Positions 2,941 through 15,480 of a stretch of 36,295 nucleotides of DNA are shown in pieces. The notes under the pieces were generated by a model. The model saw only the letters and a list, made by a program, of their open reading frames with translations, was not told where the DNA came from and did not search any database. Origin of the DNA: a virus; the IMG/VR virus record IMGVR_UViG_3300029319_000180, positions 1 through 36,295 of that record. The stretch is one strand, 5' to 3'. A program made the translations under genes and the position numbers. Each line of letters begins with the position of its first letter. Within the stretch, counting starts at the first letter, position 1.

Positions 2941-2983
2941 AAAGTAACTATACATTAGTGTCATCTACATAGCAACGGTATTG

Positions 2984-3223
2984 ATGTATTGTTTATGTAT
3001 GGGTTCGGATTGGCGTGAAAAAGCTAACTGTCGTGGCATGACTAAGCTAATGTATTCAGATCAGCATAAGAAAGCTAGGCGTGTTTGTTGGCTGTGTCCG
3101 GTGCAAACTGAGTGTTTGATGGAATCTTTTGAAGAAGAAGATATTAATTATCCGATGTATGGTGTTCGTGCTGGTATGTCTGCTGCGGAGCGTTTTCGCT
3201 ACAGGCGTATGATGTTGCAATAA
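2984..3223 (+). CDS. WhiB-family iron-sulfur transcription regulator
   Basis: 79 residues. It has the diagnostic four-Cys cluster: C16, then C35-x2-C38, then x5-C44 in CPVQTEC. This follows W10 and ANC, and is followed by YGVRAGMSAAER, the family's GVWGG-like turn and ER. WhiB proteins bind a 4Fe-4S cluster and usually act by contacting the primary sigma factor. Phage members such as mycobacteriophage TM4 WhiB are known to interfere with host WhiB2 and septation. The start is uncertain: ATG 2984 or ATG 2999, neither with a good Shine-Dalgarno. The turn residues differ from the consensus (RAG for WGG). The family is the main evidence for an actinobacterial host. Confidence 0.92.
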   Translation: MYCLCMGSDWREKANCRGMTKLMYSDQHKKARRVCWLCPVQTECLMESFEEEDINYPMYGVRAGMSAAERFRYRRMMLQ

Positions 3224-6240: not shown

Positions 6241-6586
6241 AGCTAGACAAAAGGGTACGATTGGCGAGAACGAGATTGTCGCATTACTGTACGAATACGG
6301 ACTAAAAGATGCGAAACGGACCTCGGCAGGTATGGAAAGCCATGATATCTGGTTGGGGGACATAACTGTCGAGGTCAAGTACCGCAAACGCTGGACACTG
6401 TTCCCTTGGATAACTAAACTCCGCAAAGTCGCAAACGGAAATAAGTGGGTACTATTCGCCATACATGGTGACAGGAGATCAACCGTAGGCAAGACTGTAG
6501 GTAGAGTCGCTGTGTTTGACGCAGATTTCGCAGCAGAATTATTAATGCTGTGGCGGCATTGGCAAGAGAAAGACACATACCTATGA
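6233..6586 (+). CDS. Hjc-like Holliday junction resolvase / PD-(D/E)XK nuclease
   Basis: 117 residues from GTG 6233, which overlaps the RHH stop; an in-frame TTG at 6218 is the alternative. Motifs: an early Glu in KGTIGENEIVALL, D38 in SHDIW, and E47-V-K49 in TVEVKYRKR. The order and spacing match archaeal-type Hjc resolvases, which cut four-way junctions. It fits the recombination-dependent replication set upstream and would also clear branched DNA before packaging. A VRR-NUC-like endonuclease is the alternative reading. Confidence 0.7.
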   Translation: MSKARQKGTIGENEIVALLYEYGLKDAKRTSAGMESHDIWLGDITVEVKYRKRWTLFPWITKLRKVANGNKWVLFAIHGDRRSTVGKTVGRVAVFDADFAAELLMLWRHWQEKDTYL

Positions 6587-7416
6587 AACCTAGATTAAGA
6601 GTCCTTAGCCTAGGCGCAGGAGTCCAATCAACAACAGTAGCGTTAATGGGAGTACACAAAGAAATCCCACACATGGACCACGCCATCTTCAGCGACACCG
6701 GATGGGAACCTCAATCCGTGTACGCTCACTTACAATGGTTGAAACCCATACTTGAAGAAAACGGAACCCAAGTACACATAGTCAGCGCAGGGAACTTACG
6801 CAAAGACGCACTAGGAGAGAACCCGGACATAACCAGAGTTGCTTCAATGCCGATATTCGTTAAGAACCCTGATGGCACGAAAGGTTTGTTGCGTCGGCAA
6901 TGCACACTTGAATACAAAATAAATCCATTGATGAAAAAACAACGAGAGTTGGTCGGTTTGAAACCACGGCAACGATGGAAAGAAGAACAACATTATTACA
7001 TGGATTTAGTAATGGGTATTAGTTGGGATGAAACGCAACGTATGAAAGATCCTAACGTTCCTTGGGTAACCAACCATTACCCGTTAATCGATAACCGCAT
7101 GACAAGGTACGATTGTTTGAAATGGATGGAAGATAAAGGCTATCCAAAGCCACCAAGAAGCGCTTGTCTAGGTTGCCCTTACCACAATGACGTTGAATGG
7201 AGACACATCAAAACGACTGATCCAGACGGCTGGGCAGACGCTGTAGACTTTGACGAAAAACTACGGAAGCAAGCTCTTGTTGTAGGCAAATTAGAAGGCG
7301 AACCTTATCTGCATCGGTCTATGTTGCCGTTATCCGAAGTTGATTTACGGAATGAAGAGGATATGGGGCAGATTAATTTATTTGACCAAGAGTGCGAGGG
7401 TATGTGCGGTATTTAA
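6583..7416 (+). CDS. PAPS-reductase/PP-loop ATPase-like protein
   Basis: 277 residues from ATG 6583 (ATGA overlap). The N-terminus LSLGAGVQSTTVAL (8-21) is a PP-loop of the adenine-nucleotide alpha-hydrolase type, followed by IFSDTGWEP (35-43), the signature seen in PAPS reductase and DndC-like proteins. Two Cys sites follow: RRQCTLEYK near 105 and a CLGCPYHND knuckle in the last third, which may bind a metal or cluster. Phage relatives are common and are annotated as PAPS reductase family, with their substrate mostly untested. A role in nucleic-acid modification is as likely as sulfur assimilation. No other sulfur gene is nearby. Confidence 0.75.
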   Translation: MKPRLRVLSLGAGVQSTTVALMGVHKEIPHMDHAIFSDTGWEPQSVYAHLQWLKPILEENGTQVHIVSAGNLRKDALGENPDITRVASMPIFVKNPDGTKGLLRRQCTLEYKINPLMKKQRELVGLKPRQRWKEEQHYYMDLVMGISWDETQRMKDPNVPWVTNHYPLIDNRMTRYDCLKWMEDKGYPKPPRSACLGCPYHNDVEWRHIKTTDPDGWADAVDFDEKLRKQALVVGKLEGEPYLHRSMLPLSEVDLRNEEDMGQINLFDQECEGMCGI

Positions 7417-7985
7417 TAGCGGTTTTTGCAATGTTGATTCTTCTTGCAACACCAGCTCAAGCCCACATACCGTGGGACAAGGTAGAGCAACACATATTAG
7501 CCACTGAATACGACTGGTTAGAGGACAGTGAACGAGTGTGGCTGTTGCAATACTGGATGGGTATTGACCAGGATGGCGTGTATGGTCGTAACACTCACAA
7601 GTGGCATCGACAATGGGCTATGGAACGAAGTATACCTGTGCGTCTGTATTCAACCGTTTCCCCTGATGCACGATTCTCCCCAGCCGTGGAACAATGGAGA
7701 TCTACTGTCGAGGCAGCTATTGTGGAGATGGGTGGAGACTTGCGTGATACTGCTAGGTTCCTTTCAATCATTTCTTGCGAATCTGGTGGTGATCCTAAAG
7801 CACGATCAAGTGTTAGTACTGCTAGTGGTTTGATGCAACATTTGAGGACATATTGGGATGCTAGGAGTCGTACTGCTTTAGGGTATGTAGGGGACATCTA
7901 TGATGGGCAAGATAATATCAGGGTTTCTGCTTGGCTTATTTACAGGGCTACAGGCGGTGGCTGGCAACACTGGGTATGTAGCTAA
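7404..7985 (+). CDS. Secreted lysozyme-like transglycosylase
   Basis: 193 residues from GTG 7404, which has GCGAGGG upstream; GTG 7392 in frame is possible. A Sec signal peptide covers residues 1-20 (hydrophobic core, cleavage after PAQA). Residues 47-73 (LLQYWMGIDQDGVYG) resemble a peptidoglycan-binding repeat. Residues 113-193 form an SLT/lysozyme-like domain with the catalytic Glu in SCESGGD (E126), ASGLMQ (140-145) and a C-terminal GWQHWVC. It would cut glycan strands from outside the membrane without needing a holin. It is the last gene of the rightward arm and is separate from the second lysis cassette on the other strand. Confidence 0.8.
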   Translation: MRYLIAVFAMLILLATPAQAHIPWDKVEQHILATEYDWLEDSERVWLLQYWMGIDQDGVYGRNTHKWHRQWAMERSIPVRLYSTVSPDARFSPAVEQWRSTVEAAIVEMGGDLRDTARFLSIISCESGGDPKARSSVSTASGLMQHLRTYWDARSRTALGYVGDIYDGQDNIRVSAWLIYRATGGGWQHWVCS

Positions 7986-7986
7986 C

Positions 7987-8169
7987 CTATTCTTCTTTCC
8001 AGTCAATCCATACGCCAATAAAATGGCAGATTGCACTAGCTACCGTAATCCAAATACCGTACTCTCTTGTCTCCCCAGACAACGTAATCAGCACAATACC
8101 TGTTGAACCAGCGGTAAGGCTAAGGATGAACGCTTCTCTTGTTATGCGTTTAAGTTTACGTTTAATCAT
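7987..8169 (-). CDS. Small two-segment membrane protein, candidate second holin
   Basis: 60 residues from an ATG with a good AGGAG Shine-Dalgarno. Two hydrophobic segments (about residues 13-31 and 37-55) are separated by a short charged turn (SGETREY), with a basic N-terminus and acidic C-terminus. This is the topology of small class II holins. It is the last gene of the leftward arm and overlaps the secreted acidic protein gene by eight bases. Its stop lies one base from the stop of the convergent lysozyme-like gene. A holin or antiholin role is inferred; no sequence family is recognised. Confidence 0.6.
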
Positions 8170-9682
8170 TGTTTCTCCTAATTGTTGGACCGCTGGGAGA
8201 AACAGCCGATGGACTGCTAGGTCTTGGGGGGGTTGGAGTTGTAGGTCTTGGTTGCGGTGGTGACGGTCTTGTCGCTACTGCTGTAGTAGCTACTATAGCA
8301 GTCGATGTTACAGCAATGATAGAGCGTCGATCATCAACGTTGATGGTTGAATCCTCTGGCACATAATCCTCAAAGCCACCAGCAAACACGTTTATTTCAG
8401 CTTCAAGTTCTTCTTTAACCTCGTCAGAAGCCTCGTTAAACAGCTCTGGTGCTGACTCAAAGATAACAGTTATCTGCTCATCTGTAGCTTCCTCAAAGAA
8501 GTCCGGGTTGTCCTCTAGGACTTCTTCAAAAAAGACCTCAACATCTGCTTCATCCTGTAGTATTTCAGCAATAATTTCGTCGTCAAGCTCATCAGCGTCT
8601 AACTCCTCAAAGTCTACTTCTTCAATGTCCTCAAATTCCTCAAGAACAAAGTCTAGTTCCACCTCTGATTGTACTTCACCTGGCTGTTCTTGTTCTCCAT
8701 CATCAAGGAAAGTTGTTTCTTCTTCCTTTTCTTCCTCAAATTCTTCCGGTATAAATTCATCAAGTATTTCAATTTCTGGTAACTCATCTAGCTTAAACTC
8801 TTCCCATTCTACATCATCGAAGTCCCACATGATATCATCTTCAAATGGCAGTTCTTCTGATTCCTCTATGTCTATTGTCACTGGTGGCGGTGGGTTTTCT
8901 TCAAATGGTGATGGAAGAATTGGCTCTGGGTCTGGCGATGTATCTTCTATGGGGGGTTCCCACACTGGGGTTGGTTCTGGCTCTTCTTCTGGTTCTGGTG
9001 GGAGGGGAGTGGGATCTTGAATAGGCTCATCTACGGGAGGCTCAACTTCCTCTTCAGGCGTAGGCGTTGGTTCCGGTTCAGGGTCTGGCTCAGGCGTAGG
9101 CTCTACAGGCTCAGGCGTAGGCTCAGGAGTTGGTTCGGGCGTAGGTTCTGGTTCTGGAGTCGGTTCAGGATCAGGCTCAGGCTCACTCGACAACGACCAG
9201 GTTACACCAGAAAACTCTAACGTATACGTTCCAATAGTCGTATCACTGTAAGAAGTAGCTGATAATTCATAGTCTCCTGCATCTAGCGTAAGGTTAAGGT
9301 AACTGTCCCAGCACATGCCGTTAACGTTGTGAGCAGCACCGTCGTCATCCTCACCAATAATTGTCCCATCGCTGTCGTATAGTTTAAGATAGGGGTCTGC
9401 TGCGTAAGTGTCTGTGCCTTCCCCTGTTTCATGGTCATCGCATGTCAATGATGTATAAGTAATTATTTCCACAGCAGTCTGATCTTCCTCCACAGTCATG
9501 TACACAATGGGTGGGTCATCATAGTCATTCACATGCACAGTACATGCAGTATTGTCCTCATCTTCTTGATCTACACACGTTGTTTCAGGCTCGTTCTCTT
9601 GCGCTGAGGCAGGGCTAAGAACAGCCAATACCAGCATTAACGCAAACAAAATGCGTGACAAAGCAAAGAAAAAGCGAGCCAT
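8162..9682 (-). CDS. Large secreted acidic protein with PPC-like domain
   Basis: 506 residues from ATG 9682 (an in-frame TTG at 9697 is less likely). Domains in order: Sec signal peptide 1-27 (cleavage after SPASA or ASA-Q); a Cys-containing beta domain at about 30-165 with the bacterial pre-peptidase C-terminal (PPC) pattern ([33 protein letters not shown]); a Pro-Glu-Thr repeat linker at about 166-265; a very acidic region at 270-450; a short hydrophobic segment 454-470 flanked by RR and R; and a Pro/Ser/Arg-rich tail. Late expression with a signal peptide points to the host envelope rather than the virion. It is unlike standard phage genes and may derive from a host surface protein. The function is unknown; a lysis, exclusion or surface-modification role is possible. 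Confidence 0.75.
9052..9187 (-). repeat. Short tandem repeats encoding the Pro-Glu-Thr linker
   Basis: On the plus strand this stretch is built from near-repeats of GGCTCAGGCGTA and GGTTCTGGTTC-like units, encoding (PEPTPE)n and (DPEPEP)n in the secreted acidic protein. Such repeats tend to vary in length between strains. Confidence 0.7.
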
Positions 9683-9704: not shown

Positions 9705-10463
9705 TTATGGAACTATAGAGGGCTTTTCCGTTTTCTCAGCCAACCGACTTCTGCTATACGAGCCACAATCGTTACATTTCCACCGCTGATACCTATTCGT
9801 TTGAGTCGTTCTAAAACCTCTACGCTGTAAGTTATGTGAACCGCAAGTAGGACACGCATGTTCCTCCGTAAATATGTTGAGGTTCGGATGGTTCAGCATC
9901 CAAGGTCGCAGCTTCAAATACACTTGACGCAACAAATCAACATCCTGCCGGGCATACTTAATCATTGTTTTCCAGGCTTTCATATCGCCACGCATACACC
10001 CAGCCCACGTTTGAAAACCACCAGTATCTACCTTCTGACCAAGCCCCAAATGCTGCCCTACATGATTCAAACGATTTGAGTTAAACATGAAATATCTGCG
10101 AGCTACCTTCAACGTATCAACAGACTTGACAGGTGCAGGTGGACCTAGGTCATGGTACACGAACCTAGCGTTAGCTTTACGCATATCAAACCTGTCACCG
10201 TTGTGCGCTATAACAATGTCAGCCTCATCAAACAACTCCCACATCTTCTTGACAACATGAAAATCGTTCTCTGGGTCTTTGTCGTAGGCTTCAGGAAAAT
10301 CAACTAGCGAACATACGTGCGTGCGTTTCTGATGCTCCCACCTATACGACACACACATAATGTACCATTCACGCTTATGCTGAATAACGTCTTGCTGGTA
10401 CTGCCCCCACACATAAGACAAGTTGGGTGCTGTTTCAATGTCGTAGTAAAGGATTTTGGTCAT
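9705..10463 (-). CDS. DnaQ-like DEDDy 3'-5' exonuclease with C-terminal zinc ribbon
   Basis: 252 residues from the ATG at 10463, preferred to an upstream in-frame start that would lie inside the tail gene. Exonuclease motifs: D8-I-E10 (YYDIET), HNGDRFD with D93, and Y170-ARQ-D174, the DEDDy form seen in polymerase-B-type proofreading domains. Residues 204-233 add a zinc ribbon (CPTCG and CNDCG). There is no polymerase domain. It sits among tail and lysis genes in the late arm, an unusual place for a replication enzyme. It could degrade host DNA, process ends for packaging, or proofread for a host polymerase. Confidence 0.8.
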   Translation of the reverse strand: MTKILYYDIETAPNLSYVWGQYQQDVIQHKREWYIMCVSYRWEHQKRTHVCSLVDFPEAYDKDPENDFHVVKKMWELFDEADIVIAHNGDRFDMRKANARFVYHDLGPPAPVKSVDTLKVARRYFMFNSNRLNHVGQHLGLGQKVDTGGFQTWAGCMRGDMKAWKTMIKYARQDVDLLRQVYLKLRPWMLNHPNLNIFTEEHACPTCGSHNLQRRGFRTTQTNRYQRWKCNDCGSYSRSRLAEKTEKPSIVP

Positions 10464-10471
10464 ATACCATT

Positions 10472-12379
10472 CTAGGGGACAGTTAGTAGTCGAAGGGTGC
10501 ATACCCCTTCCCACCAGTTGCCATCATCAGATAATTTCTCTGCTGACATAGCAATCTGATCAATTACGCAAGTATCAGTTTGCGAACCTTCCTGATACGT
10601 TATGATCTCCCGATTAGCCATAGCTGTTTTCAACGCATTGTATTCAGCTTTCGTATCGTACCCAATAGCAGAACCTCTACCCCTGGATGTAGCAACTTTT
10701 GTTTTAAGAATAATTGGCACGATTATTTCGTCTACTCTTGTAGGCGCAGGGAACGCTTGGATTCTCCACGACTCAATAATAGGACCAGCAGTTACTACAG
10801 AGTCCCTAGTTAAATTAAGTTGCACTTTGAACGCTTCAGATAGTTCAGGAACAAGCGTCGTAATGTTCGTAGCAACCTTGTTAGTTAAGTTACCTGTTGT
10901 TACGCTAACGTTCTCATCATTTGTAACCGTTGCTGTTATTGAACCACCAGCGCTAGACGCAGCACCAGCATACTGAGTACTGCTACCGCTGTACTCTACG
11001 CCTGACTCACTGTATTGATTGTTTGTGGCTGACAAAGCTGACGGAGCGTAACGGATTTCGATGTTCCTCAACACCTTATCAAACTGGCTATTCCAACTCA
11101 CATCACCAACAGTTAACGTGCCAGAAGCAACTAACTCACCAGTAGACTTTTCACCCTGCACACCATTAGTGGAATCAGTAAAATACGTTCTGCCTAAAGC
11201 CCTAGCAATAAACATAACGTTACCTGGCGAAGCATCAGCACCACCAGACGTTCCATCTTTAACTGACACTACATCTGCTGCCCAAGCAGGAACAAGCGTT
11301 TCAGTAAACCGTGACAAATCAGCTCGATACACTTTGCCAGAACCGCCACCAAACCACACAAAGCGTTCATCAGCAGCCAAACTAAATACTTGCCCCACAT
11401 CATCAATAACAGGACCATACGTTACCGATCCTGACCCTGCATCAATAGCAGCAATCCGCAAACCCTTAGTAGTCGCCAACGCAAGAATGCCAGCATAAGA
11501 AACCATGTCGTTAATTTTTTCGCCTCTGGGCAGTTCAGCTACTTGTTGTGGTTCGTCAAGCAAACCATCAGCAGCAGCTACAGATATAAAGCTAATAAAT
11601 CCTGTATCAGCAGCGTTACCTGCTGCATAGAAACCTACTGGACCTGAACAAACCGTGACCCAGCTACCGCCTGCTTGAGGGATACTTGAATCAAGGCTGC
11701 TAGAAACTTTCGCACCGCTAGAACTAACTTCAGATATGTTAGCGCCATCTAAGAAAAACAATCTGCCACCAACAAGTCGAATAAAGTCAGGGTTTAACGA
11801 TCCAAAACTTGCTGGTTGCGTAGTAGCACCAAGATTGACGCTAGCAGCAGCCCGGTTAGAGCCATACGCAATAAACACTTTTGAACCGTCAGACGCAATA
11901 TCAGTTATAGTTTGCGGACTGGCTAAAGCTGTAACTGTTGACCAGTTAACATCAGCGTCAGCAGAGTTAAACGAGTTAGAGAAATACAAGTTTGTTCCTT
12001 GAGCCACATACATGTACGACCCAAGCATTTTCATCTTTACATCAGTCCACGCAAACGTGTCGTTCTTAGATTCACAAATAGGCAACAAACTAATTTGCCC
12101 TTCAGTCCACACATCAACACCAGACGACTCACTGAATCTTGACCGATTAGAATTAGCATGATCGTAAAACTTTTGCCCAGACCCAAACGACCAATCAGTC
12201 TGCGACCTCAACCAAAACTGAGAATCTATTGACTGCTCACCAGGCTCGTCAGACGTATCTCTTTGCTCACGCAACGTAGGAATAGTCGTTCGACGGTACT
12301 GGTCAACGTCAATGTTGTACGAACGTGCATCAGCATCTATTGTTAATGTAACTGGTAGCCGTTCAGCTCTGTGAACCAT
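10472..12379 (-). CDS. Large tail protein, beta-propeller-like
   Basis: 635 residues, starting one base after the stop of the upstream neck-like gene. The middle (about 100-420) consists of repeated short beta blades with aromatic and Gly-Asp turns (for example ITDIASDGSKVFIAYG, FSLAADERFVWFGGG), suggesting a propeller. This recalls the tail tubular protein B/nozzle class of podoviruses. The last 110 residues (starting EIIVPIILKT) form a separate alpha/beta domain seen in distal tail proteins. Position between neck and lysis genes fits a tail component. The exact subunit is not certain. Confidence 0.6.
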   Translation of the reverse strand: MVHRAERLPVTLTIDADARSYNIDVDQYRRTTIPTLREQRDTSDEPGEQSIDSQFWLRSQTDWSFGSGQKFYDHANSNRSRFSESSGVDVWTEGQISLLPICESKNDTFAWTDVKMKMLGSYMYVAQGTNLYFSNSFNSADADVNWSTVTALASPQTITDIASDGSKVFIAYGSNRAAASVNLGATTQPASFGSLNPDFIRLVGGRLFFLDGANISEVSSSGAKVSSSLDSSIPQAGGSWVTVCSGPVGFYAAGNAADTGFISFISVAAADGLLDEPQQVAELPRGEKINDMVSYAGILALATTKGLRIAAIDAGSGSVTYGPVIDDVGQVFSLAADERFVWFGGGSGKVYRADLSRFTETLVPAWAADVVSVKDGTSGGADASPGNVMFIARALGRTYFTDSTNGVQGEKSTGELVASGTLTVGDVSWNSQFDKVLRNIEIRYAPSALSATNNQYSESGVEYSGSSTQYAGAASSAGGSITATVTNDENVSVTTGNLTNKVATNITTLVPELSEAFKVQLNLTRDSVVTAGPIIESWRIQAFPAPTRVDEIIVPIILKTKVATSRGRGSAIGYDTKAEYNALKTAMANREIITYQEGSQTDTCVIDQIAMSAEKLSDDGNWWEGVCTLRLLTVP

Positions 12380-14515: not shown

Positions 14516-14761
14516 CTACTCGTCGCCGTACAGGGACTCCTCAGATGCGGTAGTCTTACCAGCCAAAGAACATGACTTATCGCCAATCTTCGTAGCAGCC
14601 CAGCTCTTAAGAACTGACAACACAGCAGCAAAACCAGAAGCTATAACAAGTTTCCAGTTACTTACACCCATGTCAAGGAAGCTGTTACCACTGATCGTGG
14701 CTACCGCTGCTTGTACAAACGTTGCTGCACATCGCTCAAGTAAATCTAGATATTCTTTCAT
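14516..14761 (-). CDS. Holin, r1t-like
   Basis: 81 residues from ATG 14761 (MKEYLDLLERCAATFVQ), overlapping the endolysin stop by four bases. Two hydrophobic segments (about 13-31 and 38-58) flank a short loop with WKLVIASG, followed by a soluble tail AATKIGDKSCSLAGKT. This matches the actinophage r1t-type holin pattern (ER..KTF.Q.., then W...L..A..AA.LSVL.S). It would form the membrane lesions that release the endolysin encoded just upstream. Confidence 0.85.
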   Translation of the reverse strand: MKEYLDLLERCAATFVQAAVATISGNSFLDMGVSNWKLVIASGFAAVLSVLKSWAATKIGDKSCSLAGKTTASEESLYGDE

Positions 14762-15480
14762 CGTAATAATGCCTTCCAAGTATTTGGTCCAACTACGCCG
14801 TCAACATATAGTAGCCGACGCTTTTGGAACTCCACAACAGCCTTTCGAGTAAGTCTGCCATAATCCGAATCTATTTTGTACCGATACAATCCCTTAGCAG
14901 CCAACAACTGTTGCACCACTTTGACAGCAGCACCCTTAGAACCTTTCTTCAACGGATGAGCAGTAACCAAGGCTTCTATCTCAGCAAACGCAGCAGCAAT
15001 ACCCTTAACATCTTGCTTCGCTGTTTTCTTAGCTTTCGTGCCTTTTAATGCTGGTGCATCAAACCATTTGACTTTGCCGTTTACGACTTTGCAAGGTTGA
15101 TGATGCCACCACTCACCAGGCACATAAGCAACCATGCCATATGACTTTGCTATGGCGTTCACTTGAGAAGTACTGATACCTTTACCAGTAATTCTAAAAT
15201 CAACGGCATAACCCCAGTTATCAAACGCTGGTTGTTGCATGTGATATGACCCTTGGAAACCTGACGCTGTTTTGCGATCAGGGTTAGCAGCTAGGTTAAA
15301 CCCTGGCCTACCGCTTTTGTATCCGTCGTAGAAGTATTTTTGTTGTGCGTAGGTTCGTACTCCTGATACGACTTTGACTTTGTTGCGAATACGGCTGTCT
15401 CTAAAAAACGCTTCTAGTCTGCGTTTGAACTCTGGGTGTAGTAGTTCAATATTAACGTGTTTACTCGTCGTCGGTATCAT
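14758..15480 (-). CDS. Endolysin: VanY-like M15 peptidase plus peptidoglycan-binding domain
   Basis: 240 residues. The N-terminal catalytic domain has SGVRT (39-43), the zinc ligands H80 in GSYHMQQ and D94 in YAVDF, and E123-WWHH (third ligand near H126). This is the D-Ala-D-Ala carboxypeptidase/L-Ala-D-Glu endopeptidase (M15) layout. A Lys-rich linker (about 145-165) leads to a PG_binding_1 domain (about 175-240: LKKGSKGAAVKVVQQLL, DSDYGRLTRKAVVEFQ, DGVVGPNTW). No signal peptide is seen, so export depends on the adjacent holin. Confidence 0.92.
   Translation of the reverse strand: MIPTTSKHVNIELLHPEFKRRLEAFFRDSRIRNKVKVVSGVRTYAQQKYFYDGYKSGRPGFNLAANPDRKTASGFQGSYHMQQPAFDNWGYAVDFRITGKGISTSQVNAIAKSYGMVAYVPGEWWHHQPCKVVNGKVKWFDAPALKGTKAKKTAKQDVKGIAAAFAEIEALVTAHPLKKGSKGAAVKVVQQLLAAKGLYRYKIDSDYGRLTRKAVVEFQKRRLLYVDGVVGPNTWKALLR

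Follow-up and report, generated by a model that had tools for sequence, protein, structure and literature searches.

A stalked secreted protein and its fixed hairpin partner: a putative lysis-stage envelope system of aquatic actinophages

The DNA analysed here (the window) is a viral record of 36,295 bases with capsid, terminase, tail, replication and lysis genes. It encodes a secreted, stalked protein of 506 residues and, overlapping it, a small hairpin protein with two transmembrane (TM) segments. The two proteins are kept together in related viruses, mostly beside lysis genes, and the pair therefore probably acts at the cell surface during lysis. The best explanation is a virus-specific two-part envelope system of aquatic actinophages that serves at the lysis stage; on sequence comparison, a function in lysis or release is the most likely one (probability of roughly 0.55). 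The features referred to below are listed in Table 1.

Table 1. Features of the window, with positions, strand and basis of assignment (residue numbers refer to the 506-residue protein).
Feature	Position	Strand	Basis
WhiB regulator	2981..3223	+	PF02467, E 5.8e-11
Phosphoadenosine phosphosulfate reductase-like gene, adjoining the lysis region	6550-7416	+	PHROG 424, E 6e-46
Secreted SLT-domain (transglycosylase) protein, candidate muralytic enzyme	7392..7985	+	PF01464 above cutoff
Two-TM hairpin partner, 60 aa, PHROG 29041	7987..8169	-	ORF, PHROG match, linkage in all testable loci
Stalked surface protein gene, 506 aa	8162..9682	-	ORF/translation, 30 close homologues, purifying selection
Weak hydrophobic segment (454-472), Pro/Arg tail, stop codon	8162..8323	-	Hydropathy; single helix in both models
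Conserved C-terminal module, residues 386-453	8324..8527	-	Alignments, viral relatives, lowest dN/dS
Strongly acidic, partly helical region, residues 271-385	8528..8872	-	Composition; low-confidence model
Pro/Glu/Thr linker (stalk), residues 166-270	8873..9187	-	Composition; mostly near-neutral evolution
N-terminal PPC-like beta domain, residues 29-165, NF038127 / DVUA0089 family	9188..9598	-	NCBIfam; AlphaFold2 + Foldseek
Sec signal peptide, residues 1-28	9599..9682	-	Hydropathy; homologue versus control comparison
DNA polymerase exonuclease subunit gene, between tail genes and pair, late direction	9705-10514	-	PHROG 403
r1t-type holin	14516..14779	-	PF16945 above cutoff
Endolysin, VanY-like + PG_binding_1	14758..15480	-	PHROG lysis + domain matches
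Tail fibre	15591-17141		Gene annotation

The large gene starts with ATG; a TTG 15 nt upstream is possible, although less likely. Values of dN/dS were low in the C-terminal module (∼0.04–0.15) and in the beta domain (∼0.03–0.18), so that 8162–9682 is a real coding gene; in the linker they were ∼1 in most comparisons. Substitution patterns against eleven homologues placed strong constraint on the module, the beta domain and the signal peptide, the linker being mostly near-neutral. One near-identical copy (L004:9986–11433) is split by a frameshift into 319 and 181 residues, which is either a sequencing error or real. An earlier note on this DNA had described a secreted acidic protein with a PPC-like domain, a PE/PT linker, an acidic region, a C-terminal hydrophobic segment and a Pro/Arg tail, and all of these parts are present. 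The signal peptide reads [27 protein letters not shown]^Q. The same note had named homologues lacking any signal peptide as evidence that would speak against its description; a simple signal-peptide rule was satisfied by 92 of 95 distinct full-length homologues, compared with 7% of 674 other long proteins from the same loci; of the three that failed it, L065 and L152 have what looks by eye like a signal peptide.

Residues 51–153 matched NCBIfam model NF038127 with E = 1.5e-11 and 44.9 bits against a cutoff of 29, an assignment that holds for the domain only. The AlphaFold2 model of this region is a beta sandwich that resembles pre-peptidase C-terminal domains in the PDB when compared by Foldseek; the full-length model is of low overall confidence (mean pLDDT 54.7) and its usable part is the beta domain. 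Profile search and structure prediction thus bear out the PPC-like assignment, while Pfam PPC (PF04151) gave no match for the 506-residue protein and reached 24.6 against a gathering cutoff of 25.9 in one homologue. The N-terminal domain is a member of the NF038127 (FDP_fam / DVUA0089) family, which covers neither the remaining regions nor the phage context of this protein. The linker consists of 41% Pro and 31% Asp/Glu and could, with its ∼105 residues, form a stalk of up to roughly 30 nm when fully extended, and Asp/Glu account for 48% of residues 271–385. Alignments of the C-terminal module gave the motif E-x-E-[IV]-N-V-[FY] ... YVPxxSxIxVxxRR; searches for solved relatives by sequence and by fold found none that was convincing. 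No lipobox was seen in the sequences of the 506-residue protein or the hairpin.

The hairpin has two hydrophobic segments in 60 residues and fits the description of a small two-TM (class II type) holin, with a C-terminus that is acidic rather than basic. It matched no known holin family: its only match was PHROG 29041, of unassigned function, and there was none in Pfam. In the libraries searched, no family with an assigned function matched the module or the hairpin. The overlap of the two genes amounts to 8 nt, with an AGGAG motif ahead of the hairpin ATG, and separate pairs in other loci mostly overlap by 1–14 nt. In the closest deposited relative, that of Actinomycetia phage DSL-LC01, the C-terminus of the large protein runs on into a homologue of the separate hairpin protein, and the linkage of module and hairpin was therefore surveyed. 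Each of the 97 loci recovered through the C-terminal module contains the hairpin, either fused to the module protein (16 loci) or encoded just downstream, with a start within tens of bases of the stop codon (81 loci). Conversely, 77 further loci were fetched with the hairpin, two of which were cut at contig ends; a module protein lay upstream in each of the 75 with enough sequence. In one of these loci (L130) an extra small membrane ORF, and in another (L137) an LPXTG protein, stands between module protein and hairpin. Replacement of the module by the LPXTG protein was considered for L137 and rejected: the locus has the module protein immediately upstream, so that the LPXTG protein is additional. 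The small membrane protein, which the earlier note had seen as an overlapping neighbour, is an obligate partner of the large one. As a side observation, five close relatives (L020, L027, L026, L006 and L011) carry a small ferredoxin-like gene that has been inserted directly behind the pair, ∼120–145 nt past the large gene.

In every fused gene examined (13 of 13) an in-frame ATG with a Shine–Dalgarno sequence stands at the start of the hairpin, 57–65 codons from the end and with the Shine–Dalgarno core 4–10 nt upstream; these genes include near-duplicates and represent at least five sequence types (L074-like, L083/L093, L097, L101 and L033). Only five of 65 other in-frame internal ATGs in the same genes are so equipped. 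Free hairpin is thus probably produced in every case, beside the tethered form, even from fused genes. The long and short hairpin forms predicted from the fused genes, the two-TM topology and the joining of a large extracellular domain to a holin-like part would all suit a holin regulator, in which the ectodomain-bearing form acts as an antiholin or sensor that times lysis from outside signals and the hole is formed by the free hairpin. This reading, a more specific form of the best explanation, is given rather little weight here, since another holin is usually present and both hole formation and control of timing are proposals read from the sequences.

The evidence for a role at lysis comes from the gene neighbourhood. 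When the loci were grouped at 70% module identity into 17 lineages, a holin or endolysin gene lay within 2 kb of the pair in 14. Within 1.5 kb, such genes were found in 54 of 97 loci (not thinned for redundancy); randomly chosen genes of these loci gave 22 ± 4. They were identified by PF16945, by VanY and PG_binding domains and by PHROG lysis families, and their arrangement varies: pair, r1t holin and endolysin in L058, L066, L090 and L102; fused protein, VanY/PG-binding endolysin and TM-coiled-coil protein in L057, L059, L103 and L104; endolysin, holin and pair in L028 and L031; and holin, pair and endolysin in L099. The largest exception is the lineage of the window itself, in which the endolysin and r1t holin (14516–15480) are ∼5 kb upstream of the pair. 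Here a small TM-coiled-coil gene or, in the window, the secreted SLT protein stands beside the pair; of the 37 loci in this lineage, about 20 have an SLT-type gene within 2 kb. As the earlier note had stated, the large gene overlaps that of the small membrane protein and the pair converges on a secreted lysozyme-like (SLT) gene; the stop codons nearly abut, and no terminator was found between the pair and the SLT gene. The SLT transglycosylase near the pair in L081 and L078 (cluster 9) has a lipobox-like signal (LTAC) and may be a lipoprotein. Gene order of this kind suggests co-timing rather than a mechanism.

The large gene also lies in the terminal part of the late operon, beyond the tail genes, where a virion structural or receptor-binding protein could be encoded. 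A signal peptide in nearly all homologues, a membrane partner and a genuine tail fibre elsewhere in the window argue against such a protein and make it very improbable.

The WhiB gene of the window points to an actinobacterial host, WhiB being a marker of actinobacteriophages (PMC10202952). DSL-LC01 is a metagenome-assembled genome with a predicted, uncultured actinobacterial host (PMC10611076), and a tblastn search for cultured relatives with four queries against 50,697 deposited phage records returned only this genome. Profile searches of viral contigs brought up 271 relatives of the C-terminal module and, for the hairpin, at least 589 contigs; in 84,980 cellular species the module gave a single match. 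That match (L104, JAURLY010000091.1) is on a contig binned as a gammaproteobacterium, on which the fused gene is followed by endolysin and holin-like genes; with these genes the contig is most likely phage, and it is probably a mis-binned actinophage. The pair of module and hairpin is thus found almost only in viruses. These counts tell strongly against the suggestion of the earlier note that the large protein was captured from the surface proteins of a host, which is now highly improbable: the family of the beta domain was named from cellular proteins, but only this small N-terminal domain belongs to it.

A possible mechanism can be outlined. The large protein would be exported by way of its signal peptide and tethered to the cytoplasmic membrane by its C-terminal module together with the hairpin; its acidic region and Pro-rich stalk would span the wall, so that the beta domain is displayed at the cell surface. 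The hairpin, a small holin-like protein with a predicted N-in, C-in topology, would always be made free, either from the overlapping gene or from the internal start of a fused gene. The ectodomain-bearing protein, presumably expressed late and in a physical complex with the hairpin, would most likely work with it or control it late in infection, and the pair would help to open or loosen the envelope for virion exit, adding to the ordinary holin and endolysin. The hairpin need not itself be a holin, as most lineages already have a better candidate. The weak hydrophobic segment of the large protein and a module with no known structural relative count against the lysis function. The earlier note had proposed an envelope-spanning lysis factor for a Gram-positive cell; gene order in 14 of the 17 lineages and linkage or fusion to a holin-like hairpin have since strengthened this proposal, the function itself still being a prediction from sequence.

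The exposed part of the protein is variable. Homologues range from 364 to 1496 residues; the ectodomain is NF038127/PPC-like in the window and several lineages and PA14 in L093 (Pfam), and in the forms of 1300–1500 residues there are regions that resemble FN3 or beta-helices, judged from weak matches or by eye. Between the window and L019:10001–11533, the beta domain is 53% identical, compared with 87% for the module and 98% for the exonuclease and tail protein; the exposed domain has recombined, one beta domain being swapped for another. Exchangeable ectodomains and a stalk-and-head architecture are what would be expected of a surface blocker, in which the beta domain occupies or hides surface glycans against superinfection, or against re-adsorption of progeny to debris, and the hairpin is an anchor only. 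The joining of secreted LPXTG proteins to the same cassette in some phages and the presence of a related ectodomain on an outer-membrane-barrel-like protein beside cyanophage endolysins are also in its favour. Masking of the phage's own receptor predicted that the beta domain would co-vary with the tail fibre, and this was not found (r = 0.08, Mantel p = 0.21); in the same small sample of 13 distinct contigs the similarity of the beta domain tracked that of the endolysin (r = 0.61; partial 0.42 given the exonuclease). The result argues mildly against own-receptor masking. A mere anchor would, moreover, make a free hairpin with its own start unnecessary, and a PADLOC search for anti-phage or exclusion systems gave no match at E 0.1. 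Blocking of phages at the surface, which the earlier note had raised as a block to superinfection, is ranked second, as a distinctly less probable function than lysis or release.

Parts of the proposed lysis-stage system resemble known ones. The spanins of phages of Gram-negative hosts are envelope-spanning accessory lysis proteins from overlapping genes. The pair would share with them the overlapping genes and the proposed role, but it has neither an outer-membrane lipoprotein nor a coiled-coil i-spanin and is that of a phage with an actinobacterial host. In phage T4, T is controlled through its extracellular domain by RI, and lambda (S107/S105) and phage 21 (S71/S68) make long and short holin forms from one gene. 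The dual-start holin pair of lambda has been described in PMC9671378. Long and short forms are likewise predicted from the fused hairpin genes, but here the long form includes an entire secreted surface protein, hundreds of residues in length. LysF1a and LysF1b, a holin-like pair of F1 mycobacteriophages, are encoded by adjacent, overlapping membrane-protein genes in the lysis cassette, and LysF1b has 124 residues with an extracellular part of 22 residues and a cytoplasmic helical tail (PMC13056207). Overlapping membrane-protein genes, one of them for a two-TM N-in/C-in protein, are common to both pairs, but the LysF1 pair has no signal peptide or surface domain. LysZ of phages CL31 and Cog of Corynebacterium glutamicum is an extra lysis protein of 177 residues, with one TM segment in a proposed N-in/C-out topology and an extracellular part for which an action on surface glycans has been proposed (as described in PMC13056207). 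That text mentions no signal peptide, modular surface head or hairpin partner of the present kind for LysZ or for LysF1a/b. The window protein would likewise be an accessory actinophage lysis protein with an extracellular part, but its family (364–1496 residues) differs in its signal peptide, modular head and stalk and obligate two-TM partner. Against the single TM segment, N-in/C-out topology and lack of a signal peptide given for LysZ in that text, the window protein has an N-terminal signal peptide and a weak C-terminal hydrophobic segment.

Few bacteria of lakes and seas are commoner than actinobacteria. To our knowledge, the exit of aquatic actinobacterial phages is almost unstudied and the discovery of accessory lysis proteins of Gram-positive phages has only begun. 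The pair occurs in hundreds of viral contigs and is nearly absent from deposited phage and cellular genomes, and the constancy of the pairing, the fusions that occur naturally and the internal starts within them lead to testable predictions on how an extracellular domain could be tied to a holin-like protein. A wider and doubtful generalization is that phages with widely differing hosts have supplemented their lysis genes with a protein displayed at the surface, its anchor fitted to the envelope: the module and hairpin or LPXTG in actinophages and an outer-membrane beta-barrel in cyanophages. The membrane part in actinophages would then be a dual-start holin that couples lysis to sensing or action at the outer surface. 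If this is true, such lysis-stage surface proteins would constitute a new functional class. The LPXTG and cyanophage proteins differ from those of the window and therefore bear on surface display only indirectly. Secreted proteins with an LPXTG signal lie in or near the lysis cassette of freshwater actinophages (L137:4818–5999, L183:3917–5260, L186:3962–5284 and L195:3959–5242). In putative cyanophages (L192:3938–6220, L208:3935–6232 and L224:3959–6082) a related ectodomain is joined to a C-terminal barrel-like region ending in Phe; the genes directly follow a C39-peptidase-like gene and a lysozyme gene, and in L208 a DUF6450 gene comes next. The C-terminal part of the barrel protein is shared by proteins of DSL-LC03 and DSL-LC02, which adjoin annotated endolysin or lysozyme genes; the records sharing it are OR003938 (L262:4413–6062) and OR032571 (L263:2996–4855). 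The annotation of DSL-LC03 gives its protein as an outer-membrane beta-barrel.
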